Origin: Phycisphaerales bacterium Planc_01
GTDB lineage: Bacteria; Planctomycetota; Phycisphaerae; Sedimentisphaerales; Anaerobacaceae
Length of the DNA: 64,000 bases
Assembly (NCBI GenBank): GCA_001603075.1
Contig: LVBB01000006.1
Span: 140,181-204,180 of the forward strand
Direction: 5' to 3'
In this document: positions 1,703 through 10,733 of the stretch, piece after piece
How the letters are laid out: each line of letters opens with the position of its first letter
How positions within the stretch are numbered: the stretch's first letter is position 1
Translations under genes and position numbers: made by a program
Notes under the pieces: model-generated
What the model was told of the DNA's origin: nothing
What the model saw: only the letters and a program-made list of their open reading frames with translations
Database searches by the model: none

Positions 1703-2380
1703 GTGACGCGTGACGTTGCGATCGATCAGAAAGCTGCTGAGGTGCTGGATGTCCGCGACCTCGGAGTGGCCGACTACCGCGAGGTTCTGTCGCTCCAGCA
1801 GCGGTTGAACCAGCAGCGTCAGGCCGGGCAGGTGGGCGACACGGTGTTGATCGTCGAGCATCCGCCTGTGATTACCCTGGGAGCGCGCAGGAGCGCCAAT
1901 AAGCTGCTGGTCGAGCCCGACGAGCTGACGCGGCGGGGAATCGACGTCGTCGAGATTCGTCGCGGCGGCGGCGCCACCGCCCACAATCCGGGCCAACTGG
2001 TGTTCTATCCGATCCTGCACCTGCAACACCTCGGACTGGGCGCGTCCGAATACGTCCGAACGCTCGAAGCAATCGGCATCGACCTGCTCGCACGGGCGGG
2101 CGTGGCGGCCGAGAGGAAGAAAGGTTTTCCAGGACTCTGGACCGGCGGCAGGAAGATCGCTTCGATCGGCGTGCGCATCAGTCGGTTCGTGACGTATCAC
2201 GGCATGGCCATCAACATCTGCAACGACCTGACCATCTTCGACGCGATGGTCCCCTGCGGCCTCGACGGCGTCGAGATGACCTCGGTCGAGAAGGAAACAG
2301 GCCGGCCCTGCGACGTCGGTTCGCTCAAGATGCAACTGGTGCCACTGCTGCGGGAACACCTGGGGGAGCCACGACGATGA
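1703..2380 (+). CDS. lipB: Octanoyl-[acyl-carrier-protein]:protein octanoyltransferase
   Basis: LipB moves an octanoyl group from acyl carrier protein to the lipoyl-domain lysine, the first step of de novo lipoate synthesis. The 225-residue product shows the family signature RRGGGATAHNPGQ (86-98), the catalytic lysine in GGRKIAS (K151) and the thioester cysteine in VPCGLDG (C185). The start is GTG at 1703; no better ATG precedes the conserved region. A short purine-rich stretch (gggagag) sits upstream as ribosome site. The gene overlaps lipA by an ATGA junction, so the two are almost certainly translationally coupled. The A/T-rich stretch between lpdA and this gene (about 1585-1690) is compositionally unlike its surroundings but codes for nothing obvious. 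Confidence 0.95.
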   Translation: MTRDVAIDQKAAEVLDVRDLGVADYREVLSLQQRLNQQRQAGQVGDTVLIVEHPPVITLGARRSANKLLVEPDELTRRGIDVVEIRRGGGATAHNPGQLVFYPILHLQHLGLGASEYVRTLEAIGIDLLARAGVAAERKKGFPGLWTGGRKIASIGVRISRFVTYHGMAINICNDLTIFDAMVPCGLDGVEMTSVEKETGRPCDVGSLKMQLVPLLREHLGEPRR

Positions 2381-3237
2381 CCGCCAACGCCAAGCGTCTG
2401 CCCCCCTGGCTGCGAAGGCCCTGGCCGGCCAGCCACAGCTTTCAGCACACCGAGCAGACGCTCGAATCGCTGCACATCGAGACGATTTGCAGCCACGCGA
2501 ATTGCCCGAACAAGGGCGAATGCTGGGGCCGGGGCACGGCGACCGTCCTGATCCTGGGCAATGTCTGCACGCGCAACTGCAAGTTCTGTTCGGTGGGCAC
2601 GGGCAAGCCGGAGCCGCCCGACCCCACCGAACCGGCGAGGCTGGCGCGGATGGTCCAGGAGATGGGCCTGAAATATCTCGTGATGACCAGCGTCAACAGG
2701 GACGATCTGCCCGATGGAGGGGCCGGACACTTCCGCGACTGCATCGCGGAGGTCCGAAAACAGCGACCTTCGGTGCGATTTGAGATCCTCACGCCGGACT
2801 TCTGCGACAACCAGTCTGAGGCGCTCGACATTCTGGCCGACGCCCTGCCGTTTGTCTTCGCCCACAACGTCGAGACGGTGCCCTCGCTCTATCCGAAGGC
2901 CCGCTCCGGCGGCAATTACCGCCTCTCCCTGGGTCTGCTGGAGATGGCCGGCCGACGTTATTCCGGCATCCCCATCAAGTCGTCGATCATGCTCGGTCTG
3001 GGCGAGACCGACGACGAAGTGATGCAGGTTCTGCGCGACCTGCGGGCCGTCGGATGCCAGCGCATTACGATCGGGCAATACCTCAGACCCTCCGGGGATT
3101 CTCTCGATGTGATCGACTACATCCGGCCGGAGAAGTTCCAATGGTGGGCCGATCAGGCCCGGCAGGTTGGGTTCTCGTGGGTCCAGTCTTCCCCTTTCGC
3201 GCGCAGCAGCTATTTCGCTGAGCGTCAGTGCACATAG
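2377..3237 (+). CDS. lipA: Lipoyl synthase (radical SAM)
   Basis: LipA inserts two sulfur atoms into the octanoyl chain made by LipB. The 286-residue protein carries both diagnostic iron-sulfur motifs: the auxiliary-cluster cysteines C38, C43 and C49 (CX4CX5C) and the radical SAM motif CTRNCKFC with C64, C68 and C71 (CX3CX2C). The C-terminal ARSSYFAE stretch holds the conserved serine that ligates the auxiliary cluster. The ATG overlaps the lipB stop by ATGA. A weak inverted repeat (GACGAAG 3243-3249 with CTTCGTC 3275-3281, then a short T-run) follows the stop and could end the transcript, but its loop is long. Function is secure from motifs and operon. Confidence 0.97.
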   Translation: MTANAKRLPPWLRRPWPASHSFQHTEQTLESLHIETICSHANCPNKGECWGRGTATVLILGNVCTRNCKFCSVGTGKPEPPDPTEPARLARMVQEMGLKYLVMTSVNRDDLPDGGAGHFRDCIAEVRKQRPSVRFEILTPDFCDNQSEALDILADALPFVFAHNVETVPSLYPKARSGGNYRLSLGLLEMAGRRYSGIPIKSSIMLGLGETDDEVMQVLRDLRAVGCQRITIGQYLRPSGDSLDVIDYIRPEKFQWWADQARQVGFSWVQSSPFARSSYFAERQCT

Positions 3238-3412: not shown

Positions 3413-4801
3413 ATGACACGGTCAAGGATCAACTGCGCGTGCCGGCGCGGTTCTGCGCTGGTTCTGTCACTTCTGTTCGTCGCGGTGCTTTCGGCCCTGG
3501 CCGTCGCCATGGCGACGATTTCGGGCGCCAACGTCCAGGTCGCACACAACCAGCGTCAAGGAGGCTGGGCGCTTGCCAGCGCACACTCCGGCATCGAGGT
3601 CCTTCGATACTATCTCAAGGACGTCAGCATCGCCGCGGGCGCCCCGGCCGGCCGGCTGGAAGCCCTCTTCCACCAGTTGGAGGAGCAGTTCGCCGACGCG
3701 TCGAACCTCAACGTATCCTACAGTGGCAATGCGGTGACGCTGGACTCCGTCGTCCTCAGCTCGACGACCGACCAGAGCTTCGACGCCACGGTCACCTATG
3801 GAAGCCACGCAGACGGCACGCCGGACTACGACGCCATCGACGTCACCGTGACCGGCAGCAGCGGCCGAGCCGCCAAACGGGTCGGCTTCACGTGCCTCTT
3901 CAAGGAGACCGGCAACCCGATCTTCGACTACGGCATCGCCACACGGGGCCCTCTTGTGACCCAGGGCAACGTGGACATCGATACCTTCAACGAGGCGTTC
4001 TCGGCCGACATCTATATCGAGAGCTTCAACAGCAATCTGGCCCTCGAAATGATCGGTAAGTCCTCTATCGCGGGCAAGGTAACCATCGCCAACGAAACAG
4101 CCAATGTTGACATCGCCAACAGCAGTTCCGTCTTTGGGGCCAAGGGCTCGGACGCCATCGCGTTCATCACGATCGGCGCCGACACCTGCGCGTTCCCCGT
4201 TCCCAATCCTTCCGAATTCCTTGGGTTTGTGACGACCACATTCCAGTCCGGCGACCCCACCTCGAACACCACGCTGACGAACGTCGAGATCCCGGCGGAC
4301 ACCAATCCGCAGTTCACGGGCAATACGACGATCAACGGCATCATGTACATCCGTCAGCCGAACACCGTCCGTTTCGTGGGCAACGCCACAATCAACGGTA
4401 TCATCGTGGCCGAGGGGCAATTGGAGGCCCCCTCGGAACTGAACCACCTCGATTTCGGCGGGACGGTCATCAGCAATGATACTTCTACGTTGTCTTCGGA
4501 AGAGTTCGGAACGCTCACGGAGCAGACCGGGACCTTCATAGTGGCGCCGGGATTCAGCGTATCTTTCGGAGGCAATGCCAGCATGATCAATGGAGTCATC
4601 GCCGCCAGCGGGGTCCAGTTCTACGGCCATGCCGGCGGGACGATCAACGGTTCGATCATCAACTACTCCGACGACCGCATGAATCTGGCGGGCAATACGG
4701 ATCTCGTGTTCAACCGCTCCGGGCGCGACAAGATTCCAGCCGGTTTTACCCCTCAGACAACACTCGAGTTCATGCCAGACAGTTACCAGGAGTACCTGTA
4801 G
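3413..4801 (+). CDS. PilX-like exported protein with beta-solenoid-like passenger (paralogue A)
   Basis: The 462-residue product opens with a short basic stretch and a single hydrophobic helix (about residues 14-40). The motif that follows, SGANVQVAxNQ, is shared almost exactly with the next gene. This layout resembles PilX/PilW-type minor pilins, which lack the classical FTLIEL prepilin site. The rest is rich in Asn, Thr, Gly and Ile, with short repeats such as GNTTINGIMYI and GNATINGIIVAEG typical of a beta-solenoid or bactofilin-like stack. It therefore looks like a membrane-anchored or pilus-associated surface protein. No catalytic motif is seen. The ATG at 3413 lies within CATATG, as does the paralogue's start, and is preceded by agggggtag. 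The assignment to PilX is by N-terminal organisation only; passenger function is unknown. Confidence 0.7.
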   Translation: MTRSRINCACRRGSALVLSLLFVAVLSALAVAMATISGANVQVAHNQRQGGWALASAHSGIEVLRYYLKDVSIAAGAPAGRLEALFHQLEEQFADASNLNVSYSGNAVTLDSVVLSSTTDQSFDATVTYGSHADGTPDYDAIDVTVTGSSGRAAKRVGFTCLFKETGNPIFDYGIATRGPLVTQGNVDIDTFNEAFSADIYIESFNSNLALEMIGKSSIAGKVTIANETANVDIANSSSVFGAKGSDAIAFITIGADTCAFPVPNPSEFLGFVTTTFQSGDPTSNTTLTNVEIPADTNPQFTGNTTINGIMYIRQPNTVRFVGNATINGIIVAEGQLEAPSELNHLDFGGTVISNDTSTLSSEEFGTLTEQTGTFIVAPGFSVSFGGNASMINGVIAASGVQFYGHAGGTINGSIINYSDDRMNLAGNTDLVFNRSGRDKIPAGFTPQTTLEFMPDSYQEYL

Positions 4802-4969
4802 ACAGAAACGGCCCCTGCCCCGGGCGTGCCGGCGGGGCACATCCAGACGGATTCACGAGACGATTCATCCGCCACGGCCAACAACGGATGCCGAGGGGCC
4901 CGTCTCTGCCCATGATCGCCTCGAACAGACCCCCGCATCGGAATCCTTCCCTGACAAGTTGCCCTGTGT

Positions 4970-4998
4970 TTGCCGCGCGTTGCTTTGTTTTCTATAGT
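4970..4998 (+). promoter_or_regulatory. Sigma70-like promoter for paralogue B
   Basis: TTGCCG (4970-4975) and TATAGT (4993-4998) are spaced by 17 bases. The predicted leader is about 60 bases and contains the strong ribosome site gggggagg (about 5049-5056). This gives the second PilX-like gene its own start of transcription. Pattern match only. Confidence 0.45.
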
Positions 4999-5066
4999 TA
5001 ATATGGATCGTAGAAGTGCGGCAAAGTCATCTCAGTAAGGCGTTTTCCGGGGGAGGAAAATAACAT

Positions 5067-6782
5067 ATGTCCGCTGCATGCAAATCCAAACACAGGGCCA
5101 AAGGAACCGCACTGATCCTGTCGATGCTCTTCGTCCTGGTCTTCTCCGCATTGGCGGTATCCTTCGCCACACTCTCGGGGGCCAATGTCCAGGTGGCCTC
5201 CAACCAGCACCGGGTGAACACCTCGCTCTACGCGGCCCAGTCCGGTCTGGAATGTGGCAGGTACCTTGTCAAGACCGTCAGTCTGGACCAGACCAAGGAC
5301 AATCGCGTCAGCGACACCGAGGCCGAGAAGGTGTGGAGCGACCTGTGCGCGTATGTTGCCACCCAAGGCCTGGATGGCAAGACGGTGGCGTACGACGCCA
5401 ATGAACTGACGATACAGGGCATGGCGCTCGACGGTTCGGACGCCACGTTCACCGTCCGGTTCTACCGGTATGCCGGCGACCCGCACGCCATCATGCTTCA
5501 GTCAACAGGGTCTCATAACGGGGCCACTCGAACGGTCGGTATCACAATGGGCATCACGAAGGATCGCGAGATCCTCACCTATGCGATCGCCGGCCGGGGT
5601 CGCATGTGGCTGACCGGCGACACCACCATCCACGGCGATCTCTTCAGCACCTGGAACAACAAATATGTTTCTCCGTTCAATACCACCAGCGACACCACGA
5701 TCCTCGGCACAGTCAACACTGTGATCCAGAAGGACAGTCTCGGCTCCTATCACTACGATCTGGAGACCCTCGACGGCAATGGCAATCCCCTGTTCACCTT
5801 CGGCCAGACGGTTTACGACATCGACGGCAATCCGCTGACCGCCACCGTCGGCACGATTGACGAGGATCTCTGTCTGACCGATACCAACGGCAATCCGGTC
5901 TTTGACGAGAACGGGAACCGCATCCCGGTGGACTTCGAGAACCGCATCTACAGCACGGCCGATCAGCTCCAGGGGTACCACCAGAACGTGCAGTACTACG
6001 ACCCGACCAAACACTCCACGAGTATGGCCGGCCTGAGCATCTCCGATTACAACACGGACGACTACCGAGACGGACTGACCTCGCTTGCCACCAGCACCAC
6101 GACGACCGAGTACTTCCCTCACGCCCCCGGCAACTATGCCCAGGCCAGCAGCAGTTCCAGTCGCAAGCTGACGCGCCGCGTGTACCAGAACCAGACGTTC
6201 ACCAACGTCCTGCTGCCGTCCAACCAAAACGCGCTCTTTCGCAACTGCACCTTCCAGGAGGTGCTCTACGTGGACTGCAACAAGAACGCCAGCACCTATT
6301 ACAACAACGTCCGTTTCGAAGACTGCACCTTCAACGGCGTGATCGTCACCAACACACCCAAGAGCCTCCTGTGGCAGAACAACGCTCTGTATTTCACCGG
6401 GACCGCGACATTCAACAATCAGTCGTCGATCCAGGAAGCCACCATCCTGGCCCCCCACTTCAATGTGGACCTGGGCAACACCAACCCGGAACAGAGCGAC
6501 AACAACGTTCTGACGGGTGCCATCGTCGGGGGAATCGTCGATATCCGCGGCAACGCGCAGATCTACGGAACGATCATCTCCATGGCGGACACGAGCCAGT
6601 GGACATCCGGCTTCGTGACGAACATCGGAGCGACCCTCGACGACGGTGGCTCGGAGACGACGGAACTGGGCGACATCGGCGTCATCAGCATCACGCCCGA
6701 AGAGGACATGATGCTGCCCAGTGGGATCACCAGCCCGATCATCATCAAACCCGATCAGAATACGTATTCCGAAAGTGTCTGA
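5067..6782 (+). CDS. PilX-like exported protein with beta-solenoid-like passenger (paralogue B)
   Basis: The 571-residue product shares its N-terminal anchor with the preceding gene: a basic start, one hydrophobic helix (about 13-38), then SGANVQVASNQ. In place of the upstream protein's weakly conserved stretch it reads SLYAAQSGLECGRYL, which resembles the alpha-helical N-terminal region of PilX-type pilins. The passenger is larger and different, with many short Asn/Thr/Asp-rich turns such as DGNGNPLFTFG, DTNGNPVFDENGNR and RNCTFQEVLYVDCNK. These suggest calcium-binding-like turns and a beta-helix. Neither gene has a neighbouring pilus ATPase, platform protein or prepilin peptidase, so export would depend on machinery elsewhere. 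Function unknown; a surface or adhesive role is inference. Confidence 0.7.
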   Translation: MSAACKSKHRAKGTALILSMLFVLVFSALAVSFATLSGANVQVASNQHRVNTSLYAAQSGLECGRYLVKTVSLDQTKDNRVSDTEAEKVWSDLCAYVATQGLDGKTVAYDANELTIQGMALDGSDATFTVRFYRYAGDPHAIMLQSTGSHNGATRTVGITMGITKDREILTYAIAGRGRMWLTGDTTIHGDLFSTWNNKYVSPFNTTSDTTILGTVNTVIQKDSLGSYHYDLETLDGNGNPLFTFGQTVYDIDGNPLTATVGTIDEDLCLTDTNGNPVFDENGNRIPVDFENRIYSTADQLQGYHQNVQYYDPTKHSTSMAGLSISDYNTDDYRDGLTSLATSTTTTEYFPHAPGNYAQASSSSSRKLTRRVYQNQTFTNVLLPSNQNALFRNCTFQEVLYVDCNKNASTYYNNVRFEDCTFNGVIVTNTPKSLLWQNNALYFTGTATFNNQSSIQEATILAPHFNVDLGNTNPEQSDNNVLTGAIVGGIVDIRGNAQIYGTIISMADTSQWTSGFVTNIGATLDDGGSETTELGDIGVISITPEEDMMLPSGITSPIIIKPDQNTYSESV

Positions 6783-6842
6783 CCCGCTGCGATAAGAAGT
6801 AGCTGACGGTGCGTTCCAAACCTCCAAAGAAAGGAACGGAAC

Positions 6843-7154
6843 ATGCAAAGAGTCTCTGTCAGAACCCTGACCCTGCTGCTGCTGTTGCTGGCCTCGGTGC
6901 TCACGCATCAGTACGTCAAGCTCGTGCCCTCGGCCAAGGCCGACGCGGTCTGGCTGGCATTCGACGATCCGAACGACCCGAACGAGGGGCCCGGACCCGA
7001 GTGCAGCTTCCTGCCGGCGCCGCGTACGTGGCTGGACGAGGATCCCAACGAGCCGTCCGAGCCCGGACCCGAGATGGCCGGAGGATTGCGGGGGCTGCGG
7101 CTATCGGACGACGATCCGAACGAGCCCAGCGAGCCGGGGCCCGAAAGGGCATAG
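6843..7154 (+). CDS. Small secreted acidic protein with DPNEPSEPGPE repeats
   Basis: This 103-residue product has a basic N-terminus and a Leu-rich hydrophobic core (about residues 8-18) that can act as a signal peptide or membrane anchor. The rest is strongly acidic and Pro-rich, with three related blocks: DDPNDPNEGPGPE, DEDPNEPSEPGPE and DDDPNEPSEPGPE. There is one cysteine and no recognisable domain. It begins 60 bases after paralogue B with an aaaggaac ribosome site, so it is likely co-transcribed with it. The repeats look like an extended, unstructured, negatively charged spacer, perhaps for cation or wall binding; that is inference. I do not recognise the family. Confidence 0.6.
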   Translation: MQRVSVRTLTLLLLLLASVLTHQYVKLVPSAKADAVWLAFDDPNDPNEGPGPECSFLPAPRTWLDEDPNEPSEPGPEMAGGLRGLRLSDDDPNEPSEPGPERA

Positions 7155-7262: not shown

Positions 7263-7532
7263 ATTGGGGTTTCTGCCTGTCCGGCACCCGTTCGACTGCT
7301 GCACCAGACCCGAAGGCATCCGGTCTCTCCACATCTCTTCCGACCCACACCACCGGAATCTCCTCGAACACCAGAATCGGTGATGCCCGCGACGACGCCC
7401 CGGCCAGCCGCACCCCCTGAACTCCCCGTCTTTGGCGTTTGACAATCCGTCTGCGATCTGCTCTAATCCCGCCGACCTGTTCGACACCCAGCAGTCTCTG
7501 CGTGAGACTTGTCCCATACAGGAGAAGACCGA

Positions 7533-10500
7533 ATGCCAAAGCGCGCCGACATCAGGAAGATCATGATCATCGGGTCAGGTCCCATCGTCATCGGGCAGGC
7601 CTGCGAGTTTGACTATTCCGGCACCCAAGCCTGCAAGGCCCTTCGGGCCTTGGGCTATGAGATCGTGCTGGTCAACTCCAACCCGGCCACCATCATGACG
7701 GATCCTGGCATGGCCGACGCCACGTACATCGAACCGCTCACACTGGAAACCGTGACCAAGATTGTGGCCAAGGAGCGTCCCGACGCCCTTCTGCCGAACC
7801 TGGGCGGTCAATCCGGACTCAATCTCAGCTCCGAGCTGGCGCGGGCCGGCGTGCTCGACAGGTACGGGGTCAAGATCATCGGTGTCCAGGTCGACGCCAT
7901 CAAGCGAGGCGAGGACCGTCAGGCGTTCAAGGAAACGATGACCAAACTCGGGATCGACATGCCGCGAAGCCTCATTGCCAATAGCATGACGCAAGCCGAG
8001 ACGGCCGTCGAGAAGGTCGGACTGCCCTGCGTGATCCGCCCGGCCTACACCATGGGCGGAACCGGCGGCGGCTTCGCCTACAACATGGAGGAGTTCCGCG
8101 CCATCGCCGAGCGCGGCCTCAGCGCCAGTTTCGTCGGACAGATCCTCATCGAGGAATCCGTTCTGGGCTGGGAGGAGCTGGAGCTTGAGGTTGTGCGCGA
8201 CAGCAAGAACCAGATGATCACCGTGTGCTTCATCGAGAACGTCGACGCCATGGGCGTTCATACGGGCGACAGCTTCTGCACCGCGCCGATGCTCACCATC
8301 AGCGCCGACGTGCAGCAGCGTCTCCAGAAGCACTCCTACGACATCGTCGAGGCCATCGAGGTCATCGGCGGCACCAACGTTCAGTTCGCCCACGACCCCA
8401 AAACCGGACGGATCGTCGTCATCGAGATCAACCCCCGGACCAGCCGCTCGTCGGCCCTGGCATCGAAGGCAACGGGTTTCCCCATCGCCATGGTCTCCTC
8501 GCTGCTGGCCGGCGGCCTGACCCTCGATGAGATCCCCTACTGGCGCGATGGGTCCCTTGAGAAATACACGCCCTCGGGCGACTACGTCGTCGTGAAGTTC
8601 CCTCGATGGACGTTTGAGAAATTCGAGGGCCTCCAGGACAGACTCGGCACGCAGATGCGGGCCGTCGGTGAGGTCATGAGCATCGGCAAGACCTACAAAG
8701 AGGCCTTCCAGAAATCGATTCGCTCCCGCGAGGACGGTCGTTACGGCCTGGGGTTCGCCAAAGACTACCACCACAAGAGCCTCGAAGAGTTGATGCGTCT
8801 GCTGACCGAGCCATCGAGCGAGCGACAATTCATCATGTACGAGGCCCTGCGCAAGGGCGCCGATGTGCAGACCCTGCACGAGACGACCTATGTCAAAACC
8901 TGGTTCATCGAACAGATGAGGCAATTGGTCGAACTGGAAGAGACGATTCTGCAATACAGGGGCAGGACCCTTCCCGACGATCTCCTGGTTCGGGCCAAGA
9001 AGGACGGCTTCGCCGACCGCTACCTTGCGAAGCTTCTGGGGCTCGAGGAAGCGAAGATCCGCGACCGGCGCAGGACGCTGGGCGTCGTCGAGGGCTGGCA
9101 CCCCGTGCCTGTCAGCGGGGTCGAGGACGCGGCGTATTACTACTCGACCTATAACGCGCCGGATGCGACCAAGGTCTCGCCGAACCGCAAGATCATGGTT
9201 CTCGGCGGCGGACCCAACCGGATTGGCCAGGGCATCGAGTTCGACTACTGTTGCGTCCACGCCGCGTTTGCCCTCCGCGACGAGGGCATCGAATCAATCA
9301 TGGTCAACTGCAACCCGGAGACCGTCTCGACCGACTACGACACGTCGAATAAGCTCTACTTCGAGCCCCTGACGGTCGAAGACGTCTTGAGCATCTACGA
9401 GAAGGAGAAACCCGAGGGGATCATCTGCCAGTTTGGTGGCCAGACCCCATTGAACATCGCCGCCGAGCTCGAAGCCGCCGGCGCCAAAATCATCGGCACG
9501 ACGCCCGATGCCATCGATCTGGCCGAAGACCGCGACCGATTCCGTCAGAAGATGGAGAAGCTTGGGATCCCGCAGCCCGAAAGCGGCATGGCCAGCACGC
9601 AGGAGCAGGCCCTGGAGATTGCGGCCCGTATCGGCTACCCTCTCATGGTGCGTCCCTCGTTCGTCCTGGGCGGCCGCGCCATGGAGATCGTGCACGACGA
9701 AGAGATGCTCGAGCGCTACATGCGGGCGGCGGTCGATGTCTCGCCCGAGCGGCCCATCCTCATCGACAAGTTCCTCGAAAACGCGATCGAGGCCGAGGCC
9801 GATGCCATCGCCGACGGGACCGATGCCTTCGTGCCGGCGGTCATGGAGCACATCGAGGAAGCGGGCATCCACTCGGGCGACTCGGCGTGCGTGATCCCGC
9901 CGACGACCATTCCGCAGAAGCACATCGACACGATCTGTGAATACACCCGGCGGATCGCCGTCGAATTGAAGGTGGTCGGCCTGATGAACATTCAGTACGC
10001 GATCTGCAACGACAAGGTGTACATCCTCGAAGCGAACCCGCGCGCCAGCCGGACCGTGCCGCTGGTGAGCAAGGTCTGCGGCTTGTCCATGGCGAGGATC
10101 GCCACCCAGATCATGCTCGGCAAGAAACTCGCCGACCTCAACCTCAGGCAGAGTAAGGTCCCCCACTACGGCGTCAAGGAATCGGTCTTCCCGTTCTACT
10201 TCTATCCCGAAGTGGATCCCGTGCTCGGGCCCGAGATGCGATCGACGGGCGAGGTCCTCGGCATGGCCGATTCCTTCGGCCTGGCCTTCTACAAGGCCGA
10301 GGACGCCGCACAAGGACGCCTGCCCACCAACGGCACCGTCCTGATCACCGTGGCCGACAAGGACAAGAAGGCCGTCGTCGCCGTCGCCCGCCAGTTCGCC
10401 GAACTCGGTTTTCAGATCAAGGCGACCGGTGGAACGCAGGAGTTCCTCGCCAAGAACGGCATCGAGGCCGAACAGGCATTCAAAATGTACGAACAGCGAC

Positions 10501-10733
10501 CGCACATCGCCGACGAGGTGATGAACGGCAAGATCCAGCTTGTGATCAACACGCCCAAGGGCAAGGCCAGCAAGACCGACGACTCCTACATCCGCAAGGC
10601 CGCGATCCGATACCGGGTCCCGTATATCACCACCATCGCCGCCGCCTTGGCCGCCGCCAAGGGCATCGCCGCCGTCCGACAGAAGGAGCCCGACGTCAAG
10701 AGCCTCCAGGAATACCACGCCGCCATCAAATAA
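7533..10733 (+). CDS. carB: Carbamoyl-phosphate synthase large subunit
   Basis: CarB makes carbamoyl phosphate from bicarbonate, two ATP and ammonia channelled from the small subunit CarA, for arginine and pyrimidine synthesis. The 1066-residue product has the usual two homologous halves. The first begins KIMIIGSGPIVIGQACEFDYSG and the second KIMVLGGGPNRIGQGIEFDYCC; each is followed by an ATP-grasp domain. The C-terminus is an MGS-like regulatory domain (about the last 140 residues, with GTVLITVADKDKK and ATGGTQEFL), the usual site of allosteric control. I chose ATG 7533 because aggagaag lies about 6 bases upstream; an in-frame TTG at 7509 would add eight non-conserved residues. carA is not adjacent. 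Length is normal. Confidence 0.97.
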   Translation: MPKRADIRKIMIIGSGPIVIGQACEFDYSGTQACKALRALGYEIVLVNSNPATIMTDPGMADATYIEPLTLETVTKIVAKERPDALLPNLGGQSGLNLSSELARAGVLDRYGVKIIGVQVDAIKRGEDRQAFKETMTKLGIDMPRSLIANSMTQAETAVEKVGLPCVIRPAYTMGGTGGGFAYNMEEFRAIAERGLSASFVGQILIEESVLGWEELELEVVRDSKNQMITVCFIENVDAMGVHTGDSFCTAPMLTISADVQQRLQKHSYDIVEAIEVIGGTNVQFAHDPKTGRIVVIEINPRTSRSSALASKATGFPIAMVSSLLAGGLTLDEIPYWRDGSLEKYTPSGDYVVVKFPRWTFEKFEGLQDRLGTQMRAVGEVMSIGKTYKEAFQKSIRSREDGRYGLGFAKDYHHKSLEELMRLLTEPSSERQFIMYEALRKGADVQTLHETTYVKTWFIEQMRQLVELEETILQYRGRTLPDDLLVRAKKDGFADRYLAKLLGLEEAKIRDRRRTLGVVEGWHPVPVSGVEDAAYYYSTYNAPDATKVSPNRKIMVLGGGPNRIGQGIEFDYCCVHAAFALRDEGIESIMVNCNPETVSTDYDTSNKLYFEPLTVEDVLSIYEKEKPEGIICQFGGQTPLNIAAELEAAGAKIIGTTPDAIDLAEDRDRFRQKMEKLGIPQPESGMASTQEQALEIAARIGYPLMVRPSFVLGGRAMEIVHDEEMLERYMRAAVDVSPERPILIDKFLENAIEAEADAIADGTDAFVPAVMEHIEEAGIHSGDSACVIPPTTIPQKHIDTICEYTRRIAVELKVVGLMNIQYAICNDKVYILEANPRASRTVPLVSKVCGLSMARIATQIMLGKKLADLNLRQSKVPHYGVKESVFPFYFYPEVDPVLGPEMRSTGEVLGMADSFGLAFYKAEDAAQGRLPTNGTVLITVADKDKKAVVAVARQFAELGFQIKATGGTQEFLAKNGIEAEQAFKMYEQRPHIADEVMNGKIQLVINTPKGKASKTDDSYIRKAAIRYRVPYITTIAAALAAAKGIAAVRQKEPDVKSLQEYHAAIK

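Follow-up and report, generated by a model that had tools for sequence, protein, structure and literature searches.

In type IV pili, the initiation (tip) complex that contains PilV and PilW normally includes PilX. Tapirins, which are beta-helix surface proteins of Caldicellulosiruptor, have been associated with cellulose binding and with loci for type IV pili. The solenoid-bearing tip pilin is already known as a kind, with ComZ of Thermus thermophilus (PDB 6qvi) as the solved example (PMC6561018). ComZ binds DNA, its tip position has been argued on structural grounds, and FfIBP, an ice-binding protein, serves as a relative of its solenoid (PMC6561018). Display of a functional module on a filament through its addition to a pilin is also seen in the modular pilin PilB of Streptococcus sanguinis (PMC8179133).

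The window analyzed is a stretch of 64,000 nucleotides from Phycisphaerales bacterium Planc_01 (GCA_001603075.1, contig LVBB01000006.1, positions 140,181 to 204,180 of the forward strand). Its + strand carries gene A (3413..4801, 462 aa), gene B (5067..6782, 571 aa), and gene C (6843..7154, 103 aa), and all three open reading frames named in a preliminary description are present. A and B are assigned as ComZ-like minor pilins through the PilX_N domain, AlphaFold2 (AF2) models, and Foldseek, as well as, for B, operonic position in relatives. C is assigned as a small exported acidic repeat protein linked to B through locus counts and composition. We consider it very probable that A and B are paralogous minor pilins of the ComZ kind, which would form part of the tip of the type IV pilus whose genes lie on another contig of the genome (C36); C would probably assist B.

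The N-terminal anchors of both proteins score above the Pfam cut-off of 25.5 bits for PilX_N, at 28.6 bits for A (E 1.4e-6) and 36.3 bits for B (E 5.4e-9), as the PilX-like anchors of the preliminary description led one to expect. No other place in the 5.65 Mb genome matches this domain. Among homologs, 26 of 33 for A and 36 of 56 for B match PilX_N at E 0.01. Other Pfam and NCBIfam matches (pentapeptide, SV2 luminal domain, HalA) are weak and fall well under their cut-offs. A Gly13 at the end of the leader, a hydrophobic helix, and an A-x-SGLE region are conserved in A and B. The two anchors had been called nearly identical, which holds for the shared SGANVQVAxNQ motif but is generous for the helix, given 34 identical positions in 58 (59%). 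Kinship extends beyond the anchor: in BLASTP, the first 215 residues of B match A at 34% over ~225 columns, and a second aligned segment lies within the passengers. Profiles built from the 56 B and 33 A homologs align in hhalign with E 9e-48 over 441 columns, and a joint tree splits A from B into two groups, each fully supported. From the BLASTP segments, the profile alignment, and the separate tree groups, it follows at the level of sequence that A and B are old full-length paralogs whose passengers are diverged copies of one fold. The alternative of unrelated passengers on A and B is rejected by the hhalign result.

Both proteins were modeled with confidence by AF2 (pLDDT 88.3 and pTM 0.83 for B, pLDDT 86.1 and pTM 0.70 for A). 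In both models the N-terminal helix is long and is accompanied by a pilin sheet, a solenoid, and a final strand with a conserved Y-x-E end (SYxE in A). Since the matches to the pilin part run from residue 80 to 567 in B and from 42 to 462 in A, the last strand probably rejoins the pilin sheet. A and B are thus predicted to be type IV pilins whose sheet is interrupted, before its last strand, by a beta-solenoid of the ice-binding type, whereas the vWA module of PilB is linked after the pilin domain. ComZ is the best match in the PDB by Foldseek for both B (E 1.4e-9) and A (E 3.2e-9), with a probability of 1.00. Superposition of the two models on ComZ with VIA-align covers 351 residues (Z 12.5) and 333 residues (Z 13.4). 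The placing of the two domains in the models appears to differ from that of ComZ or to be uncertain, because the rmsd of the full-length superposition is ~12 A. The solenoids taken by themselves superpose on ice-binding proteins with Z ~15 over ~195 residues at 3.2-3.4 A (VIA-align). In profile searches, ComZ is the first match of B, though a weak one (E 0.032), and the two share W-L-x-G-x-x-T-I-x-G, a motif found where the solenoid of B begins; ComZ is not among the matches of A at E 1. The preliminary description, which spoke of different beta-solenoid-like passengers, was therefore right about the solenoid but not about the difference, as both heads are paralogous solenoids of the ComZ/ice-binding type.

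By their predicted fold, A and B share with ComZ a type IV pilin bearing a large ice-binding-type solenoid in its sheet. They differ in their low identity to it (~10-15%), in their acidic heads, and in forming a tandem paralogous pair, which lies either between pilV and pilW or away from pilus genes and has C after it. That A and B serve a competence pilus as its DNA receptor at the tip, as ComZ would in Thermus, is quite unlikely. The idea draws on a best structural match that binds DNA (PMC6561018) and on a genome that encodes both PilT and ComEC. Yet the heads are strongly acidic, with net charges after residue 165 of about -27 (B) and -20 (A), and ComEC occurs in all near-complete relatives, even those without A and B, leaving no signal of co-inheritance. 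A competence link sought through ComEC is uninformative for this reason. Among other beta-helix proteins, the tapirins (PDB 4wa0 and 6n2b) align with the A solenoid at VIA Z scores of 9.7 and 9.2, but A reaches only 12 bits against the NCBIfam tapirin cut-off of 600, and B has no match.

A scan of genome contigs recovered 66 loci, all from Planctomycetota by title except for one 'uncultured bacterium'. In four of these (L087, L091, L131, and L138), two A paralogs stand beside B, giving three solenoid pilins. B adjoins type IV pilus genes in 14 of the 66 loci, and in 11 of these 14 B, or A and B together (L146), sits between pilV and pilW. The operon order in these 11 loci is pilM-N-O-orf-B-T-C-V-X-W, with A/B filling the X slot; gene B of the window is the copy that occupies this gap in relatives. 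In the other loci, including the window, the usual order is lipB-lipA-A-B-(C), and carB or lon often comes next. Here lipA, encoding lipoyl synthase (2377..3237, + strand), is the conserved upstream neighbor of non-operonic A-B, and carB (7509..10733, + strand) a frequent downstream neighbor; both are context and lie outside the function. Operonic positions of B have two or three separate origins on the tree, and the operonic B of one clade nests among non-operonic B. Given that nesting, the tree favors neither direction of movement, and the proposal that A and B were lost from the operon in this lineage was not retained.

In the genome under study, the orthologous pilus operon is found on contig C36 (~G000:C36:38157-46501). 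Its Pfam content comprises PilM_2, PilN, PilO, T2SSE+MshEN, T2SSE, T2SSF, and two N_methyl pilins. Within it, pilV and pilW are directly adjacent, with no pilX in between; among 30 loci fetched, the two genes adjoin in all 26 in which both are visible, this one included. A gene of 237 aa between pilO and pilB in the C36 operon (L068:10405-11118) is conserved in position in relatives and has no Pfam match. At 462 and 571 aa, A and B are several times larger than classical PilX. They resemble the PilX of the PilV/PilW/PilX-PilY1 tip complex (PMC7541494) in the PilX_N domain and in the pilV/pilW gene slot of relatives, and are unlike it in their solenoid head and in belonging to a genome in which no PilY1 was found.

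The presence of A/B also tracks that of the pilus. In a survey of 61 genomes, in which an orthologous pilC was defined by at least 430 bits (paralogs scored below 252), those at least 90% complete have either both A/B and pilC (24) or neither (10), with none discordant (34/34 in agreement). The Fisher probability of this agreement is 7.6e-9, a value that ignores relatedness. The joint absences fall in three families (f1, f2, and f4), each of which also has members with both, so that at least about three independent joint losses are indicated. Taken together, the pilV/pilW slot in relatives, the C36 operon, and the perfect tracking of pilC indicate that A and B do not stand alone but most probably belong to a type IV pilus encoded elsewhere in the genome. 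It is by this measure very improbable that A, B, and C make up a surface or adhesion system of their own, unrelated to a pilus, as the preliminary description had suggested. Such a system would account for genes that here and in most relatives lie among housekeeping genes, apart from the pilus operon, and for four incomplete genomes that have A/B without an orthologous pilC. Set against it are the repeated placement between pilV and pilW elsewhere, the confidently predicted pilin fold of both proteins, and the fact that the discordant genomes, seven in number, are all at most 87% complete. The related remark that no standard pilus gene accompanies the pair is correct for this locus but fails genome-wide.

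It is likewise very unlikely that A and B act as pseudopilins, in the role of GspK, within a type II secretion system of this genome. GspK is also a tip subunit with an inserted domain, the genome encodes many T2SSE ATPases, and the first 60-70 residues give weak NCBIfam GspK matches. However, these matches reach only 24.4 and 17.5 bits against a cut-off of 130, B in relatives sits with pilM-N-O, pilT, pilV, and pilW, and the presence of A/B follows the pilC of the C36-type operon.

If A and B are tip pilins of the C36 pilus, prepilin peptidase would cut them after the conserved Gly13, and their N-terminal helix and pilin sheet would then associate with PilV and PilW as part of the initiation (tip) complex. 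The large beta-solenoid would be displayed at the end of the filament as a rigid ligand-binding head, and A/B may thus act as a tip adhesin or receptor. With no PilY1 recognizable in the genome, A and B are the best candidates for this role. Their tip location is carried over from ComZ and GspK and is therefore presumptive; expression of A and B jointly with the pilus is assumed, and their non-operonic site and possible own promoter tell against taking it for granted. C, being exported and linked to B, would probably help in the folding, storage, or tip assembly of B.

C has a Sec-like signal peptide followed by three acidic units of the DPNEP..GPE type. Neither Pfam nor NCBIfam contains a family that it matches with a meaningful score. 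It has no paralog in its own genome, and appears to be undescribed. A C-like ORF, defined by a hydrophobic N-terminus, a length of 40-260 aa, and a start at most 200 nt from the stop of B, irrespective of charge, comes after B in 41 of the 48 loci outside the operon. None of the 13 operonic loci checked has one; there B is followed by pilW or by no C-like ORF. Of the 41 C-like proteins, 40 carry a net negative charge on their mature part, and 27 end in E. Their tails are highly variable, mostly with one to five units, each made of a hydrophobic stretch plus an acidic linker, and in some loci long divergent versions are matches by position only. At the N-terminus of C, second codon positions change least among near relatives, which fits a coding sequence, albeit on small numbers. 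One locus (L121) has the order B-C-A, which ties C to B rather than to the last position in the cluster. The small partner gene of the preliminary description accordingly gains support by position.

It is possible, and advanced here tentatively, that C represents a hitherto unrecognized class of accessory proteins for pili. Members would be small, acidic, exported, and fast-evolving, each dedicated to a ComZ-like tip pilin as its chaperone, cap, or ligand in cases where the gene for that pilin is not part of the minor-pilin operon. That C is instead unrelated to A and B, and owes its downstream position to chance or to the order of genes between lipA and carB, seems unlikely. The barely conserved tail of C speaks for such a chance placement, as does its absence from 7 of 48 non-operonic and all 13 operonic loci. 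It is difficult to reconcile, however, with a C-like ORF recurring after B in 41 of 48 loci despite differing downstream genes (carB, lon, A, and others), and with the position of C directly after B in L121 although A comes next. The notion that the repeat of C mimics the C-terminal strand of A and B, all of which end near E, was rejected, as profile scores do not exceed those of shuffled sequences (mean z 0.08).

No literature on proteins of the A, B, or C type in planctomycetes was found in a search that had most subscription journals outside its reach, and the literature found says little about pili in Planctomycetota. As far as can be told, protein C is new, and so are the tandem arrangement of the pair, its occurrence in this lineage, and its separation from the pilus operon. 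In Planctomycetota the ComZ design appears in duplicate, as two anciently diverged copies connected with a type IV pilus. A and B become specific candidates for how the mostly uncultured planctomycetes hold on to surfaces or particles, and C a small accessory candidate whose link to the pilin is directly testable.

Upstream of B, a promoter-like site, TTGCCG-17-TATAGT, matches the consensus at 4970..4998 (+ strand), which is weak by itself given three matches found against 1.1 expected. From the -10 element onward, the block in front of B is conserved in three relatives of the genus. In an alignment of the four genomes, the leader of B (4999..5066, + strand) is conserved and includes a ribosome-binding region rich in purines. 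This conserved promoter-like block suggests that B and C may have their own transcription start. Intrinsic terminators around A-B-C are in no excess over shuffled sequences.

Two further observations concern the wider genome. A prepilin-like protein with a classical leader (L024:9229-10119) is encoded a few kb upstream on the opposite strand, just outside the window. Nineteen matches to T2SSE-type ATPases, many beside a PilC/GspF-like gene, are spread over contigs C6, C24, C36, C48, C58, C99, C121, C128, C134, and C139; so many filament or secretion machines of type II/IV are unusual for one genome.
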